This document shows positions 4,348-13,064 of a DNA stretch of 64,000 bases, piece after piece. Below the pieces are notes generated by a model that saw nothing but the letters and a program-made list of their open reading frames with translations, searched no databases and was not told the origin of the DNA. The position numbers were made by a program, and so were the translations under genes. Location of the stretch: positions 124,001 to 188,000 of the forward strand of contig NZ_FNVY01000004.1 in assembly GCF_900104595.1 (NCBI RefSeq), read 5' to 3'. The stretch's first letter is position 1; each line of letters opens with the position of its first letter. This stretch comes from Enterococcus timonensis (GTDB lineage: Bacteria; Bacillota; Bacilli; Lactobacillales; Enterococcaceae).

Positions 4348-4471
4348 ACAACTTGATTGACGGTGTCTCAGGAGCAACGGCTAGGAAAATAGATAAAACT
4401 TCCGGCGAATTTTCAATTCGTCCTCGGTTTTTCTAATTTTCTACGCCGTTACCGCTCCTTTGACATCCTTA
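4344..4471 (+). repeat. Palindromic repeat copy R1 (type A apex)
   Basis: Copy of the dispersed hairpin family. Outer arms: GGTGTCTCAGGAGC with GCTCCTTTGACATCC, then ACGGC with GCCGT. Conserved inner blocks CTAGGAAAATAGAT and CTAATTTTCTAC flank an apical stem CGAATT/AATTCG. Its right end TTA is the complement of the pepQ TAA stop codon. Confidence 0.85.
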
Positions 4472-5770: not shown

Positions 5771-6778
5771 ATGATTGATAAACAAACTATAACTATTTAT
5801 GACGTTGCTCGTGAAGCTGGCGTGTCCATGGCCACTGTATCGCGCGTGGTCAACGGCAACCCTAATGTGAAACCAGCGACACGCAAAAAAGTATTAGACG
5901 TAATTGAACGTTTAGATTACCGGCCAAATGCGGTAGCTCGGGGACTAGCCAGCAAAAAAACTACGACTGTCGGCGTATTAATTCCAGATGTTTCCAATAT
6001 GTTTTTTGCTTCATTGGCGCGGGGGATTGACGACGTGGCTACCATGTACAAATACAATATTATTTTAGCTAACTCAGATTCTAACGATGAAAAAGAAATC
6101 AACGTGTTGAACACGTTATTAGCTAAACAAGTGGATGGAATTATTTACATGGGCCATCACATCACTGACCAATTGCGCTCAGAATTTTCCCGTTCTCGGA
6201 CGCCGGTTGTTTTGGCTGGAACGGTTGATCCTAAAAATGAATTAGGTTCAGTTAACATTAATTACGAAACAGCGACTAGCGATGCGATTAATCTTTTGGC
6301 TGACAATGGCAATAAAAAAATTGCTTTTGTTTGCGGCGAATTAGCTGATCCAATTAATCATGAAAGTCGTTTAATTGGTTATAAAAATGCTTTAGCTAGC
6401 AAAAATTTGGAATACGATGATGCTTTAGTTTTTGAAAGTTCATTAACTTTTAAAGATGGTGTAAAACTATCTGAACAAATTTTAGCAAGTGGCGCAACGG
6501 CGGCATTTATCACTGATGATGAGTTGGCTTTAGGCGTGCTAGACGGCGTGTTAGACAAAGGCGTGAAAGTGCCAGAAGAATTCGAAGTAATTACTTCCAA
6601 CAATTCCTTGTTAACCGAAGTCTCACGTCCAAAAATGACTTCCATCACGCAACCTTTGTATGACTTAGGTGCCGTATCGATGCGTTTGTTAACAAAATTA
6701 ATGAACAAAGAAGAGACCGACGAAAATGTCGTTGTCTTACCTTACGGATTAGAAGAAAAAGGATCAACGAAAAAATAA
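5771..6778 (+). CDS. ccpA: Catabolite control protein A
   Basis: LacI/GalR-family global carbon regulator of 335 residues that binds cre sites together with HPr(Ser-P). The N-terminal helix-turn-helix reads TIYDVAREAGVSMATVSRVV, followed by the hinge RPNAVARGLASKKT and the periplasmic-binding-protein-like sensor domain. The ATG with AGAGGAG nine bases upstream is chosen; the frame stays open further 5' but into the promoter. Divergence from pepQ supports the ccpA assignment over other LacI members. Candidate targets in this window are cre sites near the pectin genes. The stop codon abuts repeat R2 and a strong terminator follows. Confidence 0.93.
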   Translation: MIDKQTITIYDVAREAGVSMATVSRVVNGNPNVKPATRKKVLDVIERLDYRPNAVARGLASKKTTTVGVLIPDVSNMFFASLARGIDDVATMYKYNIILANSDSNDEKEINVLNTLLAKQVDGIIYMGHHITDQLRSEFSRSRTPVVLAGTVDPKNELGSVNINYETATSDAINLLADNGNKKIAFVCGELADPINHESRLIGYKNALASKNLEYDDALVFESSLTFKDGVKLSEQILASGATAAFITDDELALGVLDGVLDKGVKVPEEFEVITSNNSLLTEVSRPKMTSITQPLYDLGAVSMRLLTKLMNKEETDENVVVLPYGLEEKGSTKK

Positions 6779-6908
6779 GGTTGTCAAAAAAGCGGGTTGC
6801 CTCGTAGGAAAATAGTAAAATGGTGAATGATTGCAACGCAATCAGAAGGCATTTTGTCTTTTTCCCTAGAGGCAGCTCTTTTGACACCGTCAATAAGATT
6901 GTTGAAAA
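6776..6908 (-). repeat. Palindromic repeat copy R2 (minus orientation)
   Basis: Same family, inverted. Read on the minus strand it starts GACGGTGTCAAAAG, has inner blocks CTAGGGAAAAAGAC and TATTTTCCTAC, an apical stem TGATTGC/GCAATCA with CTTC and TTCACC side bulges, and ends in TTTTGACAACCTTA. The last three bases pair with the ccpA TAA codon. It lies between the ccpA stop codon and its terminator. Confidence 0.82.
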
Positions 6909-6910
6909 AT

Positions 6911-6952
6911 AAAAAATCCATCACTGGAATTTCTGGTGATGGATTTTTTTTA
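6911..6952 (+). terminator. ccpA terminator
   Basis: Stem AAAATCCATCAC with GTGATGGATTTT and a nine-base loop, followed by a T-run. Confidence 0.85.
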
Positions 6953-6972
6953 AAAATTTTAAGATTAAAAGG

Positions 6973-7013
6973 TTTACATTCTTTAGTAAAAGTTTTACAA
7001 TAAGTTTACTAAA
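6973..7013 (+). promoter_or_regulatory. galK promoter with GalR-type operator
   Basis: TTTACA and TACAAT are 17 bases apart. Between them lies the near-palindrome GTAAAAGTTTTAC. A perfect nine-base inverted repeat TTTAGTAAA / TTTACTAAA (14-base spacer) spans the -10 region. The layout fits repression by the LacI-family GalR encoded at the end of the cluster. Confidence 0.65.
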
Positions 7014-7033
7014 TAAATTTAAGAGGTGACATG

Positions 7034-8194
7034 ATGAAAGATTTACAAGAAATTTTCACAGCAAGATTTGGAGAAGGATCAAAACCAACAGATTTTTTCT
7101 CGCCAGGACGAATTAATTTAATTGGCGAACACACAGATTACAATGGCGGTCACGTTTTTCCAGCGGCGATTACTTTAGGCACTTATGGTGTGGCGCGTCG
7201 TCGTGACGATCAAAAGATTCGTTTGTACTCAGAAAATTTTGCTGATCTTGGCGTGATTGAATTTTCTTTAGACGATTTAAATTACAAAAAAGAAGACAAC
7301 TGGGCAAATTATGCTAAAGGAATGGTAAAATATTTACTAAGCGACGATTTTGCCATCGACTCCGGTTTTGAAGTGGCATTATGGGGCAATATTCCAAACG
7401 GTGCCGGCCTTTCGTCATCGGCTTCACTTGAATTATTAATCGGCGTGATTTTGCAAGAATTATTCGTTCTTCCTACTACGCGCTTGCAATTAATTTTAAC
7501 TGGGAAACGAGTTGAAAATGAATTTATCGGCGTGAATTCCGGTATTATGGATCAATTTGCCATTGGTATGGGCAAAGCAAACCACGGAATTTTTCTTGAC
7601 ACCAATACGCTGGATTATGAAATGGTACCGGTGGAACTTGGCGAGTATGTCGTTTGCATTATGAATACTAACAAGCGTCGCGAGTTGGCCGATTCCAAAT
7701 ACAATCAACGTCGCGCCGAATGTGAAGAAGCGCTGAAACGTCTGAAAAAAGAATTGCCGATTGATTCTCTTGGTGCTTTAGATGAAGAAACGTTTGAAAA
7801 AAATACCGGCTTAATCGGGGATGAAGTTTTAATCAAACGGGCTCGTCATGCCGTTTACGAAAATCAACGGACCATTCAAGCAAAAAATGCTTTAACTTCT
7901 GGCGATTTGGAAACATTTGGCAAATTATTAAATGAATCCCACGCTTCTTTGAAAAATGATTACGAGGTGACCGGCTTAGAATTAGACACATTAGCTGAAA
8001 CCGCACAAAAAGTTCCTGGCGTTTTAGGCGCGCGGATGACCGGCGCTGGATTTGGCGGGTGCGCCATTGCTTTAGTTCATCACGATCACTATCAAGATTT
8101 AACTGACGCAGTTGGCAAAAAATATTTGGATACAGTCGGTTATGCGGCTGATTTTTATGAAGCAAAAATTGGCGATGGCACCAAAAAGTTGTAA
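7034..8194 (+). CDS. galK: Galactokinase
   Basis: GHMP kinase of 386 residues that phosphorylates alpha-D-galactose at C1, the first committed Leloir step. The galactokinase signature [15 protein letters not shown] is at about residue 27, the ATP-binding [12 protein letters not shown] motif at about 120, and [16 protein letters not shown] near the C-terminus. Two adjacent ATG codons exist; the second has better spacing from AGAGGTGA. It is first gene of the gal cluster behind a promoter with an operator-like palindrome. More than 400 bases holding three tandem palindromic repeats separate it from galE, so downstream expression may be reduced or uncoupled. Confidence 0.94.
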
Positions 8195-8233
8195 GATAAA
8201 TTGAATGAAAGATCTTAAACAATGTTTGAATGA

Positions 8234-8350
8234 TAGACGGTGTGTTTTGAACAATGACTAGGAAAATAGATACCATGACTTCTGCCTGCTTGGCAGTCAT
8301 ACACCATGGTCCTAATTTTCTACGTCATTAACCGTTCAAAACACAACCTT
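8234..8350 (+). repeat. Palindromic repeat copy R3 (first of tandem triplet)
   Basis: Outer arms GGTGTGTTTTGAAC and GTTCAAAACACAACC are complementary with one bulged base; the second stem is ATGAC/GTCAT. Inner blocks CTAGGAAAATAGAT and CCTAATTTTCTAC are conserved. The apex is ACCATG / CATGGT enclosing CTGCC...GGCAG. The arm sequence differs fully from R4 and R5. Confidence 0.85.
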
Positions 8351-8471
8351 ATTCACGGTGTCTCAGGCGCAATGGTTAGGAGATTAGATAAAATTTTTAA
8401 AAATCCGAGTTCGGGATTTTCGAAAAATTTTCCTAAATCTCTACACCATTAAGCGCGCCTTTGACAACCTT
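8351..8471 (+). repeat. Palindromic repeat copy R4
   Basis: A 121-base unit nearly identical to R5. Outer arms GGTGTCTCAGGCGC and GCGCGCCTTTGACAACC; second stem AATGG/CCATT; inner blocks GGAGATTAGAT and CCTAAATCTCTAC; apex of AAAATTTTT and AAAAATTTT around a small ATCC/GGAT stem. Confidence 0.85.
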
Positions 8472-8592
8472 ATTCACGGTGTCTCAGGCGCAATGGTTAG
8501 GAGATTAGATAAAATTTTTAAAAATCCAAGTTCAGGATTTTCGAAAAATTTTCCTAAATCTCTACACCATTAATCGCGCCTTCGACAACCTT
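8472..8592 (+). repeat. Palindromic repeat copy R5
   Basis: A 121-base unit that differs from R4 at only a few positions, evidence of recent tandem duplication. Its right end GACAACCTT is followed after four bases by the galE ribosome binding site AGAGGAGG. Confidence 0.85.
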
Positions 8593-8610
8593 ATTAGAGG
8601 AGGAATTATT

Positions 8611-9603
8611 TTGACAATTTTAGTATTGGGTGGGGCTGGGTATATTGGTTCACACGCTGTGGATCAATTGATCGGCAAAAATTATGATGTAGCGGTTATC
8701 GACAATCTCGTGACTGGTCATCGCAAAGCAATCAACAAAAAAGCGCGCTTTTATGAAGGGGATATTCGCGACAAGACCTTTATGCAAAAAGTTTTCTCAA
8801 CAGAAAAAATTGAAGCTGTGATGCATTTTGCAGCATTTTCTTTAGTTGGCGAATCTGTAGATAAACCTTTAAAATATTTCAACAACAATGTTTACGGGAT
8901 GCAAATTTTGCTAGAAGTGATGAAAGAATTCGAAGTTAAAAATATTATTTTCTCGTCAACGGCGGCAACTTACGGCGAACCAACGGAAAATCCAATTACC
9001 GAATTAACACCAACTAATCCGAAAAATCCTTATGGCGAATCAAAATTAATGATGGAAAAAATGATGAAGTGGTCCCACTTGGCATATGGCATGAATTATG
9101 TTGCCTTGCGTTATTTCAACGTGGCTGGCGCCAAAGCCGACTCAACAATTGGGGAAGATCACGATCCAGAAACCCATCTTGTTCCGATTATTTTGCAAAC
9201 AGCATTAGGCCAACGTTCCGTCATGAAAATTTTCGGGGACGATTATGATACGCCAGATGGCACTTGCATTCGTGATTATGTGCAAGTTACTGATTTAATT
9301 GCGGCTCATATTTTAGCGCTAGAATATTTGAAAAATGGTGGCGAATCGACTGCCTTTAATCTTGGCAGCGCCCAAGGTTACTCCGTAAAAGAAATGGTGG
9401 AAGCTGCACGCGAAGTCACTGGTAGAGAAATTCCAGTGGAAATCGTTGCTCGCCGTGCCGGAGATCCGAGTCGTTTAGTGGCTAGTCCTAAAAAAGCGAA
9501 AGAAATTTTAGGATGGAAACCTGAGTATCAAGACGTTAAAGATATTATTCAAACCGCTTGGAATTGGCATTTGTCACACCCAGCCGGCTACGATGATAAA
9601 TAG
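8611..9603 (+). CDS. galE: UDP-glucose 4-epimerase
   Basis: Short-chain dehydrogenase-type epimerase of 330 residues interconverting UDP-galactose and UDP-glucose with bound NAD. The N-terminal Rossmann motif GGAGYIGSH, the catalytic Tyr-Lys pair in [13 protein letters not shown] and the serine/threonine of SSTAATYG are visible. It starts at TTG, with AGAGGAGG seven bases upstream. The upstream region is repeat R5, so no own promoter is obvious. It is followed after 13 bases by galT. Confidence 0.93.
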
Positions 9604-9616
9604 GAAGGAAGATTTC

Positions 9617-11107
9617 ATGTCCATTAGTCAAACGATCGCCGATTTTGTAACCGTCGCTATTGAAAATGGCGGCTATATGGAAATGGATCGACTTTATTTA
9701 CAAAATAAAGTGCTAGGTCTGATCGGTGAAACAACTTTTGAACCCAGCCAACCAAAAGGCGCTGGCGTGGAAGTTGCGCCATTAATTACTGCATTATTAA
9801 ATCAAGCTATCGAAAATAAAGTCGTCGGAAAAACGGCGAGCGCCCAAGATGTTTTGGTCGCGCAACTGACTGACCTTATGACGCCGCCACCTTCTGTTGT
9901 GAATGCTTTATTTGCTGAACATTATCACCATTCACCGGAAGACGCCACGAATTATTTCTTCGATTTATCCCAGAAAAATGATTACATTAAAACTGCGGCG
10001 ATTGCTAAAAATATTATTTTTCCAGCAAAAACAGAATACGGCGACCTTGAAATTACAATTAATTTGTCGAAACCTGAAAAAGACCCTAAAGAAATCGCCG
10101 CAGCCAAAACGGCGCCGGCTCATGTCTATCCAAAATGTCTTTTATGTATGGAAAATGAAGGCTATTTAGGTGGCGGAGCAGCCAATTATCCGGCCCGCAC
10201 AAATCACCGCTTGATCCGGTTGAATTTGCAAGGGGAGAGTTGGGGTTTCCAGTATTCGCCCTATGCTTATTACAACGAGCATTGCATTATCTTGGCCGAA
10301 GAGCATCGCCCAATGAAAATTAACGAAGACACTTTCCGTCGCTTACTGGAAATTGTCCAAGTTTTTCCTCATTATTTTGTGGGTTCTAACGCTGATTTGC
10401 CGATTGTGGGCGGATCAATTCTTAGCCACGATCATTATCAAGGGGGCCATCATGAGTTTCCAATGCAAAAAGCTGCAGCCGAAAAAAGTTATACTTTGAC
10501 GGAATTTCCTGATGTTTCTTTAGAAAAAGTTCGCTGGCCCATGAGTGTCTTGCGCCTCCGTTCTGAAAATAAAGACCATCTGATTCAAGTGGCTAGCCAT
10601 ATTTTAACCAAATGGAAAAATTATTCTGATCCATCTGTCGACGTTCGGGCTTATTCTGGCGATGGCACCCGCCATCACACGGTCACACCGATTGCTCGCA
10701 AAGTTGGTAAGAATTTTGAAATGGATATTGTCTTGCGGGACAATAATATTTCGGCGGAATTTCCTGATGGGATTTTCCATCCACATCCTGACGTGCAACA
10801 TATTAAAAAAGAAAATATCGGCCTAATTGAAGTGTTAGGACTGGCTATTTTGCCACCGCGTTTGAAAGATGAATTAGCTGAAGTGGAAAAATATTTACTA
10901 AGTGAAAAAAATCAAATCGCCGCAATCCATGTACCATGGGCGGAAGAAATTTCCAAAAAATACGCGACGATTACTTCAGAAAATGTTGAAAAAATTGTTC
11001 AAGCTGAAGTGGGCGCAGTCTTTTGCCGCGTCTTAGAAGATGCCGGCGTCTTTAAACGCGATGAACAAGGTGAAGCTGCTTTTGAAAAATTCATTGCAAC
11101 ACTGTAA
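9617..11107 (+). CDS. galT: UDP-glucose-hexose-1-phosphate uridylyltransferase, class II
   Basis: A 496-residue enzyme that transfers UMP from UDP-glucose to galactose-1-phosphate. The length and the motifs SHDHYQGGHHEFPM and FHPHPDVQHIKKENIGLIE are those of the Gram-positive class II family rather than the shorter zinc-type class I. The ATG with GGAAGGAAG upstream is chosen; an in-frame ATG eight codons earlier would overlap the galE stop. It lies between galE and galR, about 30 bases before galR. Confidence 0.93.
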   Translation: MSISQTIADFVTVAIENGGYMEMDRLYLQNKVLGLIGETTFEPSQPKGAGVEVAPLITALLNQAIENKVVGKTASAQDVLVAQLTDLMTPPPSVVNALFAEHYHHSPEDATNYFFDLSQKNDYIKTAAIAKNIIFPAKTEYGDLEITINLSKPEKDPKEIAAAKTAPAHVYPKCLLCMENEGYLGGGAANYPARTNHRLIRLNLQGESWGFQYSPYAYYNEHCIILAEEHRPMKINEDTFRRLLEIVQVFPHYFVGSNADLPIVGGSILSHDHYQGGHHEFPMQKAAAEKSYTLTEFPDVSLEKVRWPMSVLRLRSENKDHLIQVASHILTKWKNYSDPSVDVRAYSGDGTRHHTVTPIARKVGKNFEMDIVLRDNNISAEFPDGIFHPHPDVQHIKKENIGLIEVLGLAILPPRLKDELAEVEKYLLSEKNQIAAIHVPWAEEISKKYATITSENVEKIVQAEVGAVFCRVLEDAGVFKRDEQGEAAFEKFIATL

Positions 11108-11113
11108 AAATAA

Positions 11114-12123
<1,010 letters not shown>

Positions 12124-12124
<1 letters not shown>

Positions 12125-12170
12125 AAAAAATCGCTAGATGACGAAAATTGTCATTTAGCGATTTTTTTAT
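12124..12170 (+). terminator. gal cluster terminator
   Basis: Stem AAATCGCTAGATGAC with GTCATTTAGCGATTT (one wobble), loop GAAAATT, followed by T-run. Confidence 0.85.
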
Positions 12171-12187
12171 CGGGTTGCGCTTATTTT

Positions 12188-12305
12188 AACGGGCAAATTT
12201 CTTGCAAGGTCTAGGGAAAAAGACAATCCCCATCAATAATCAAAAAGCGATTATCAACGGGGATTTCTATTTTCCTACGCCCTTAAGCGCAAAAAATTGC
12301 CCCTA
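12188..12305 (+). repeat. Palindromic repeat copy R6 (divergent arms)
   Basis: Arms GGGCAAATTTCTTGC and GCGCAAAAAATTGCCC, second stem AAGG/CCTT, inner blocks CTAGGGAAAAAGAC and CTATTTTCCTAC, apex ATCCCC...GGGGAT around ATAATC/GATTAT. The right end CTA is the complement of the clpP TAG stop codon. Confidence 0.75.
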
Positions 12306-12896
12306 TTTTTTCAAGTTGTTGTTTTCCATGACGGCGTCGATTAGGCCGTAATCTTTGGCTTGTTGGGCGGTCATGTAGTTGTCGCGGTCGGTATCTTTTT
12401 CGATAACTTCTAGCGGTTGGCCAGTTTGTTCAGCCAAAATTTTATTCAAACGTTCCCGTGTTTCTAAAATATGTTTGGCAGCAATTTCAATTTCGGCTGC
12501 TTGACCTTGGGCACCGCCCATTGGTTGGTGAATCATAATTTCAGCATTTGGCAAGGCGAACCGTTTCCCTTTGGCACCGGCTGTGAGTAAGAAGCTTCCC
12601 ATCGAAGCGGCCATGCCAAGTACGATCGTTTGGACATCGGCTTTAATAAAATTCATCGTGTCAAAAATCGCCAGACCGGCTGAAACTGAACCACCTGGTG
12701 AGTTGATGTACAAGAAAATATCTTTTTCAGAATCTTGAGCATCTAAGAATAATAATTGGGCAATCAAACTGTTGGCCACATCATCGTCGATGGCACCAGA
12801 CAGCATAATAATCCGATCTTTTAATAGGCGCGAATAAATATCATAAGCCCGTTCGCCGCGGGAAGACTGTTCAATGACTGTGGGAATTAAATTCAT
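12303..12896 (-). CDS. clpP: ATP-dependent Clp protease proteolytic subunit
   Basis: Serine protease of 197 residues that forms two heptameric rings and works with Clp ATPases in protein quality control. The catalytic triad is visible: Ser in [11 protein letters not shown] (about residue 97), His in [10 protein letters not shown] (about 122) and Asp in DTDRDNYM (about 171). Strong TAGGAGG ribosome binding site eight bases before the ATG. The promoter carries a CtsR operator, so heat-shock control is expected. The TAG stop codon is also the terminal triplet of repeat R6. Confidence 0.95.
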
Positions 12897-12966
12897 AAGT
12901 TTTTCCTCCTAATGTTCAACTGACTTCTTAGCTATTTTAGCATAAAAAGAAATCATCTACGAAAAA

Positions 12967-12996
12967 AGTATACTGAATTGGTCAAGAAAGGTCAAA
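12967..12996 (-). promoter_or_regulatory. clpP promoter with CtsR operator
   Basis: Minus-strand promoter TTGACC / TATACT with 17-base spacer. On the plus strand GGTCAAGAAAGGTCAAA matches the CtsR heptad-repeat consensus (GGTCAAANANRGTCAAA) at all but one defined position and covers the -35 region. Confidence 0.85.
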
Positions 12997-13064
12997 TTAT
13001 TTGCGCTGAGAATTCATTTTGTCGTAAGCTATTTTATACAAGCAGATTATAGTAAGTAAAAAGT

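Follow-up and report, generated by a model that had tools for sequence, protein, structure and literature searches.

A dispersed hairpin repeat adjoining stop codons in Enterococcus timonensis, with an atypically placed tandem array between galK and galE

The three hairpins that separate galK from galE in Enterococcus timonensis are members of a dispersed genomic family of more than 100 copies, here in an atypical position, and not a device specific to the gal operon. The triplet is probably a tandem array of a high-copy mobile palindromic repeat, similar to the REP and EFAR elements, that has spread through the genome. In the window (the whole stretch of DNA analyzed, 64,000 nucleotides), the end of galK and the start of galE (Table 1) leave an intergenic gap of 416 bp, most of which consists of three hairpins of about 115 nt each, denoted R3, R4 and R5; galE is followed by galT and then by the gene for a LacI-type regulator.

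The first-pass annotation had reported three hairpin units filling most of this gap, two of them almost identical and the third with unrelated arms, the last unit ending a few bases ahead of the galE ribosome-binding site (RBS), and no visible separate promoter for galE. All these observations hold. The coordinates agree, and the folds are far beyond chance, with predicted energies of -43 to -45 kcal/mol versus -18 to -22 kcal/mol for dinucleotide shuffles (z-scores from -6.5 to -8.1; no equally stable sequence among 200 shuffles of each unit). R4 and R5 are identical at all but 4 of their 115 positions; the arms and the apical hairpin of R3 are unlike those of either. The single promoter-like match in front of galE (9 of 12 positions) overlaps the RBS and the start codon, so that a separate galE promoter is not visible. 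A reading of the hairpins as intrinsic terminators of the galK-galE mRNA is rejected, given that the array contains no terminator-like site on either strand and no U-tract. Strong structures in the galK-galE mRNA are certain on sequence grounds, but the gal-specific regulatory role that had been suggested for them finds no support: the element recurs after dozens of other genes, those of pepP, ccpA and clpP type among them, and no relative read carries it in the galK-galE gap.

Table 1. Hairpin units and adjacent features in the window
Feature	Position	Strand	Details
Unit behind pepP-like gene	4361..4469	+	gene on -; 0 nt to TAA; 101.0 bits
Unit behind ccpA	6778..6889	-	0 nt to stop; terminator 25 nt on; 111.2 bits
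galK	7031..8194
Hairpin unit R3	8238..8349	+	arm GTTTTGAAC/GTTCAAAAC; apical type iii; fold -45.0 kcal/mol, z -7.6; CM R1 113.1 bits
Linker TATTCA	8350..8355	+	reads TTATTCA if last base of R3 is included; R4-R5 linker identical
Hairpin unit R4	8356..8470	+	arm CTCAGGCGC/GCGCCTTTG; apical type i; fold -44.6 kcal/mol, z -6.5; CM R1 107.7 bits
Hairpin unit R5	8477..8591	+	3' end (AGG, other strand) toward galE RBS; fold -42.8 kcal/mol, z -8.1; CM R1 111.0 bits
galE ribosome-binding site GAGGAGG	8597..8603	+	sequence
galE	8611..9603
Diverged unit behind clpP-like gene	12190..12304	+	gene on -; distance -1, TAG shared with element; 74.9 bits
Unit 4 nt behind stop codon	21327..21436	+	gene on -; 109.3 bits
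Three-unit tandem, 5 nt behind stop codon	40137..40486	+	gene on -; 110.2, 97.9, 111.4 bits
Unit flush with stop codon	52531..52640	+	gene on -; distance -1; 93.0 bits

A BLAST search of the gal region against its own genome yielded 57 matches, and a covariance model applied to the respective loci produced 104 rows that correspond to 103 units (one row being a unit read again on the opposite strand), organized in 49 arrays, each containing one to four units; the DNA searched consisted of the loci around the matches, so that the copy number is at least 103. A scan of the complete window detected 11 units at seven places. Units were selected with a strict sequence pattern and the covariance model, and a looser pattern that produced false positives in coding sequences was dropped. 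The strict pattern identified 68 units, all with the same layout: the 5' half reads CGGTGT, a 9-nt arm, a 5-nt arm, Y, TAG, a 6-nt arm, AGAT and the apical hairpin, and the 3' half continues with CCTA, a 6-nt arm, TAC, R, a 5-nt arm, NNNC, a 9-nt arm and ACAACCT. Each unit, 109-116 nt long, is one long hairpin with a single stem of five stacked helices: an outer helix of about 14 bp, a 4-nt NNNC bulge on the 3' side, a 6-bp helix, the TAG/TAC internal loop, another 6-bp helix, the AGAT/CCTA loop and the apical hairpin.

In 66 aligned copies, standard pairs account for 91.6% of the 2441 pair cells, and two-sided changes were detected in 562 cells and at 33 of the 37 pairs. None of 500 shuffles matched the observed values of pairing, two-sided change or covariation, and a shift of the partner by one to three columns lowered pairing to 39-50%. 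The arms vary in sequence among the copies with complementarity maintained, and the unpaired motifs TAG, AGAY, CCTA, TAC and the last C of the bulge are nearly invariant. Arms and apical hairpins recur in varied combinations, so that the units appear modular. The diverged unit on the clpP side has a longer apical hairpin and is scored by the model on both strands. A search of Rfam with positions 6000-13000 of the window (E-values up to 1) left the hairpins unmatched, except for a SAM-II match over this clpP-side unit that, at 23.2 bits, is below the cut-off of 44; for eight loci of other genomes (E-values up to 0.01), the hairpins had no match at all.

The placement of the arrays follows a simple rule. 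For 44 of the 49 arrays, the AGG end, in the sense of the mRNA, is found at a distance of -1 to 16 nt downstream of a stop codon, a count that considers ORFs with 60 codons or more and that might be biased by the selection of loci for similarity to the gal array; the distance is -1 to 2 nt for 30 arrays, and 43 arrays are located within 14 nt, inside the 15 nt applied to REP-like repeats, with one more at 16 nt. Among the AGG trinucleotides of the window, only 51 of 975 are found within the same 16 nt, and six of the seven loci from the whole-window scan conform to the rule. All conforming arrays have the same orientation relative to the upstream gene, and an intrinsic terminator is present within 140 nt past the far end of 35 of the 49 arrays, compared to 26 of 400 random stretches. 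The normal order is thus coding sequence, stop codon, hairpin array, short spacer and terminator. The gal array breaks this rule: it is inverted, with its AGG end toward the galE RBS. Another array (L017) is inverted in the same manner, its AGG end facing the RBS side, and the remaining exceptions are L019, one of the arrays in L132, and L007, at 32 nt. At the distal, terminator-side ends of L006, L010, L012, L016 and L018, a truncated unit (AATAAGGTTGTC and one outer arm) is present; such a truncated unit was seen at this end of many arrays, as if units had been lost by deletion between direct repeats.

Relatives were compared at the gal site. A genome of the same genus (G002) encodes pepP, ccpA, galK, galE, galT and the regulator in this order, with a galK-galE junction of 12 bp; immediately after its ccpA stop codon come a short spacer and a terminator, with no hairpin, and the unit behind ccpA in the window occupies exactly this empty boundary between the stop codon and the spacer-terminator. 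No hairpins were found in the galK-galE gap of the other relatives read, where the gap is short whenever galK precedes galE; in several relatives, galE resides in a different gene context. The gal array, being absent from all the relatives read, is therefore lineage-specific.

The linkers between units provide a hint of how the arrays might grow. Inter-unit linkers are array-specific. In this genome, the first linker of an array is on average closer to the flank on the gene side of that array than to those of other arrays (mean common suffix 2.94 versus 1.52 in permutations, p = 5e-5), and consecutive linkers also tend to match one another (4.73 versus 2.03, p = 5e-5). Such a pattern would arise if units were added on the gene side, each with a short duplication like that of a target site, but tandem recombination homogenizing the linkers would also fit it. 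We infer from these features that the element is mobile: an enzyme would move or copy the units in the form of folded palindromes, and new units would join at the gene-side end, with a few flanking bases duplicated. A mobilizer of the RAYT/IS200 or TnpB-like type was rejected, as the respective domains were not found: PF01797 (Y1, RAYT/IS200-type transposase) has no match in this genome, which is 95% complete, compared to 5 of 14 controls with a match, and TnpB-like domains, also sought in this genome, are absent.

Beyond E. timonensis, the model matched 32 (E-value at most 0.01) of a set of 78 genomes drawn mainly from the same family and order. Among 151 genomes of the class, seven had matches at E-values of at most 1e-5, namely the genome itself, five of one genus, which the named hits suggest to be Streptococcus, and one from another order; in the latter (L147:1300-1840), the tandem arrays have similar ends (AGGCTGTCGA...GAGACGCCG) and a different core, and may represent a wider superfamily. 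The strict core pattern was found in Enterococcus moraviensis, E. termitis, E. crotali, E. quebecensis, E. ureilyticus and E. plantarum, in Streptococcus anginosus, S. infantis, S. orisratti, S. ictaluri and S. cuniculipharyngis, in Lactococcus reticulitermitis and L. hodotermopsidis, and in Streptococcaceae MAGs; viral contigs contained no match to it. In the E. moraviensis group, the arrays end 17-34 nt before the start codon in the orientation of the gal array, and several arrays in other genomes adjoin stop codons; in both the 5' and the 3' placement, the same end of the element is directed toward the coding sequence. Some streptococci carry hairpins that share this core within their rRNA operons, placed between the genes for tRNA-Ala and 23S rRNA (L095:1016-1093; L113:5048-5124); S. 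anginosus has several identical copies of these.

The EFAR repeats of Enterococcus faecalis comprise several sequence types and are inserted at stem-loop targets. The present element shares with EFAR and Efa-1 the palindromic structure, high copy number, intergenic location and presence in Enterococcaceae. EFAR-type repeats have been assigned to MITEs in Enterococci (PMC3733652), and Efa-1 consists of 163 bp with a pair of adjacent stem-loops (PMC2267715); compared by description only, a two-stem-loop unit of 163-170 bp differs from tandem single hairpins of 109-116 nt. REP/BIME elements, likewise high-copy extragenic palindromes, are mostly located downstream of coding regions, many of them within 15 nt of the stop codon (PMC3733652, PMC12306157), and E. 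coli REPs at this distance have been reported to stall ribosomes (PMC12306157). Whereas REPs are 20-40 bp long, carry a GTAG or CGTC tag and are associated with RAYT, the element described here is about 115 nt long, combines fixed loops with divergent arms, lacks a conserved tag (the flanks preceding CGGTGT vary among TTGA, TTCA, TTAT and TTAG), and resides in a genome without a Y1/RAYT transposase domain. Bacterial MITEs in general are non-coding, palindromic, gene-adjacent and transcribed, and can alter mRNA stability (PMC3733652, PMC2229807). RUP, NEMIS/Correia, ERIC and YPAL are similar as non-coding palindromes next to genes, but their arms are conserved; in the present element, the arms vary between copies, and of the transposase types with which terminal inverted repeats might be shared, the two sought (Y1 and TnpB-like) have no domain in the genome. 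Integron attC sites are hairpins with conserved unpaired bases and variable arms that occur in tandem arrays. The likeness to attC in these features is only an analogy: by eye, the element lacks the attC core-site sequences, and no cassette genes are located between the units. The element thus behaves like REP and EFAR repeats but departs from REPs in size, tag and transposase and from Efa-1 in the described two-stem-loop structure, and we found no description of it in the literature on EFAR, small repeats and hairpins of lactic-acid bacteria.

Several other readings have to be weighed against a spreading mobile repeat. The hairpins could be elements of RNA processing or stability, such as RNase III sites or exonuclease barriers, that are selected in place, with the loops serving as protein-binding sites; this we consider possible but doubtful. 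The locations in untranslated regions (behind stop codons or, in certain streptococci and in the E. moraviensis group, just ahead of the RBS) and in streptococcal rRNA operons are compatible with this reading, as is the mild excess of G.U over A.C on the mRNA strand in the 3'-UTR context (67 versus 38, p = 0.006), but the 5'-UTR set shows no such excess (22 versus 28). Furthermore, wobble is rare on the modeled strand (41 G.T and 95 A.C cells among 3256 Watson-Crick cells) compared to tRNA stems in the same DNA (51 G.U versus 0 A.C in 639 pairs), which implies that pairing is kept nearly Watson-Crick on both strands and weakens the case for selection on RNA structure alone. This argument is tempered by the stems of intrinsic terminators, which are similarly low in wobble (32 G.T and 16 A.C of 1040, at most one non-Watson-Crick pair being allowed per stem), so that low wobble is no proof of a constraint at the DNA level; near-Watson-Crick pairing by itself cannot separate DNA-level copying from RNA-level selection.

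It is also conceivable, if somewhat unlikely, that the arrays are neutral debris, a palindromic mobile repeat surviving where it is harmless and affecting neither gal nor other genes. The high copy number, the unrelated genes in front of the arrays and the presence of one and two model matches in two incomplete genomes of the same genus (each only about 76-77% complete) would all agree with this, but neutral insertions are expected between terminators and promoters as well, whereas 44 of the 49 arrays are at stop codons in one orientation, and both the paired arms and the unpaired motifs are conserved. The original suggestion, an attenuator or processing site in the gal operon selected for the galK:galET ratio, draws on the strong intercistronic mRNA structure and the lack of a visible galE promoter; it appears improbable given an element that recurs behind dozens of other genes, with the gal array as the odd one out, no such array at this site in any relative read, and no U-tract for termination. 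Returning to the mobile repeat, we regard as rather unlikely a more specific version, in which the mobile form is a hairpin of folded single-stranded DNA, recognized by an enzyme through the fixed unpaired nucleotides rather than the arms and spread across Lactobacillales, with its register set by translation signals, the same end facing the stop codon in one lineage and the RBS in another.

By analogy with REPs, the position of the element close to stop codons may be linked to translation. At the usual site, the hairpin would begin inside the footprint of the terminating ribosome, and may slow termination or block 3'-to-5' decay; the effect on ribosomes is proposed because REPs within 15 nt of stop codons are reported to stall ribosomes and most of the arrays described here are closer. 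Within gal, the close coupling of galK and galE is probably lost through the array, which may also set a boundary for mRNA processing or stability without acting as an intrinsic terminator; an effect on expression is likely. A shifted galK:galET balance is plausible because the array widens the junction from 12 bp, as in the relative of the same genus, to 416 bp. One odd operon gap thus led to a genome-wide rule of swappable arms, invariant loops and docking within 1-2 bases of stop codons, which raises the questions of which enzyme copies or inserts such palindromes and whether post-stop structure is a general means of controlling termination, mRNA decay or ribosome rescue in lactic-acid bacteria. 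It also calls for caution: intercistronic hairpins should be checked genome-wide before operon-specific regulation is inferred.

Two minor observations concern individual loci. The genome encodes a reverse transcriptase of 352 aa (L149:700-2364; C1 ~567800-571400) after a gene with a repeated 3' end; the downstream repeat contains adenine-rich differences of a variable/template-like kind, and the locus is apparently a diversity-generating retroelement. It is the only reverse transcriptase found, and we rejected it as a mobilizer of the hairpins, no link to them being visible. In five Streptococcus loci (L078, L079, L101, L104 and L109), copies of the element are located just 5' of the start codons of parC-, purN- and purE-like genes, so named from the protein starts only, and these copies carry an additional small CGGC..GCCG hairpin on the 3' side.
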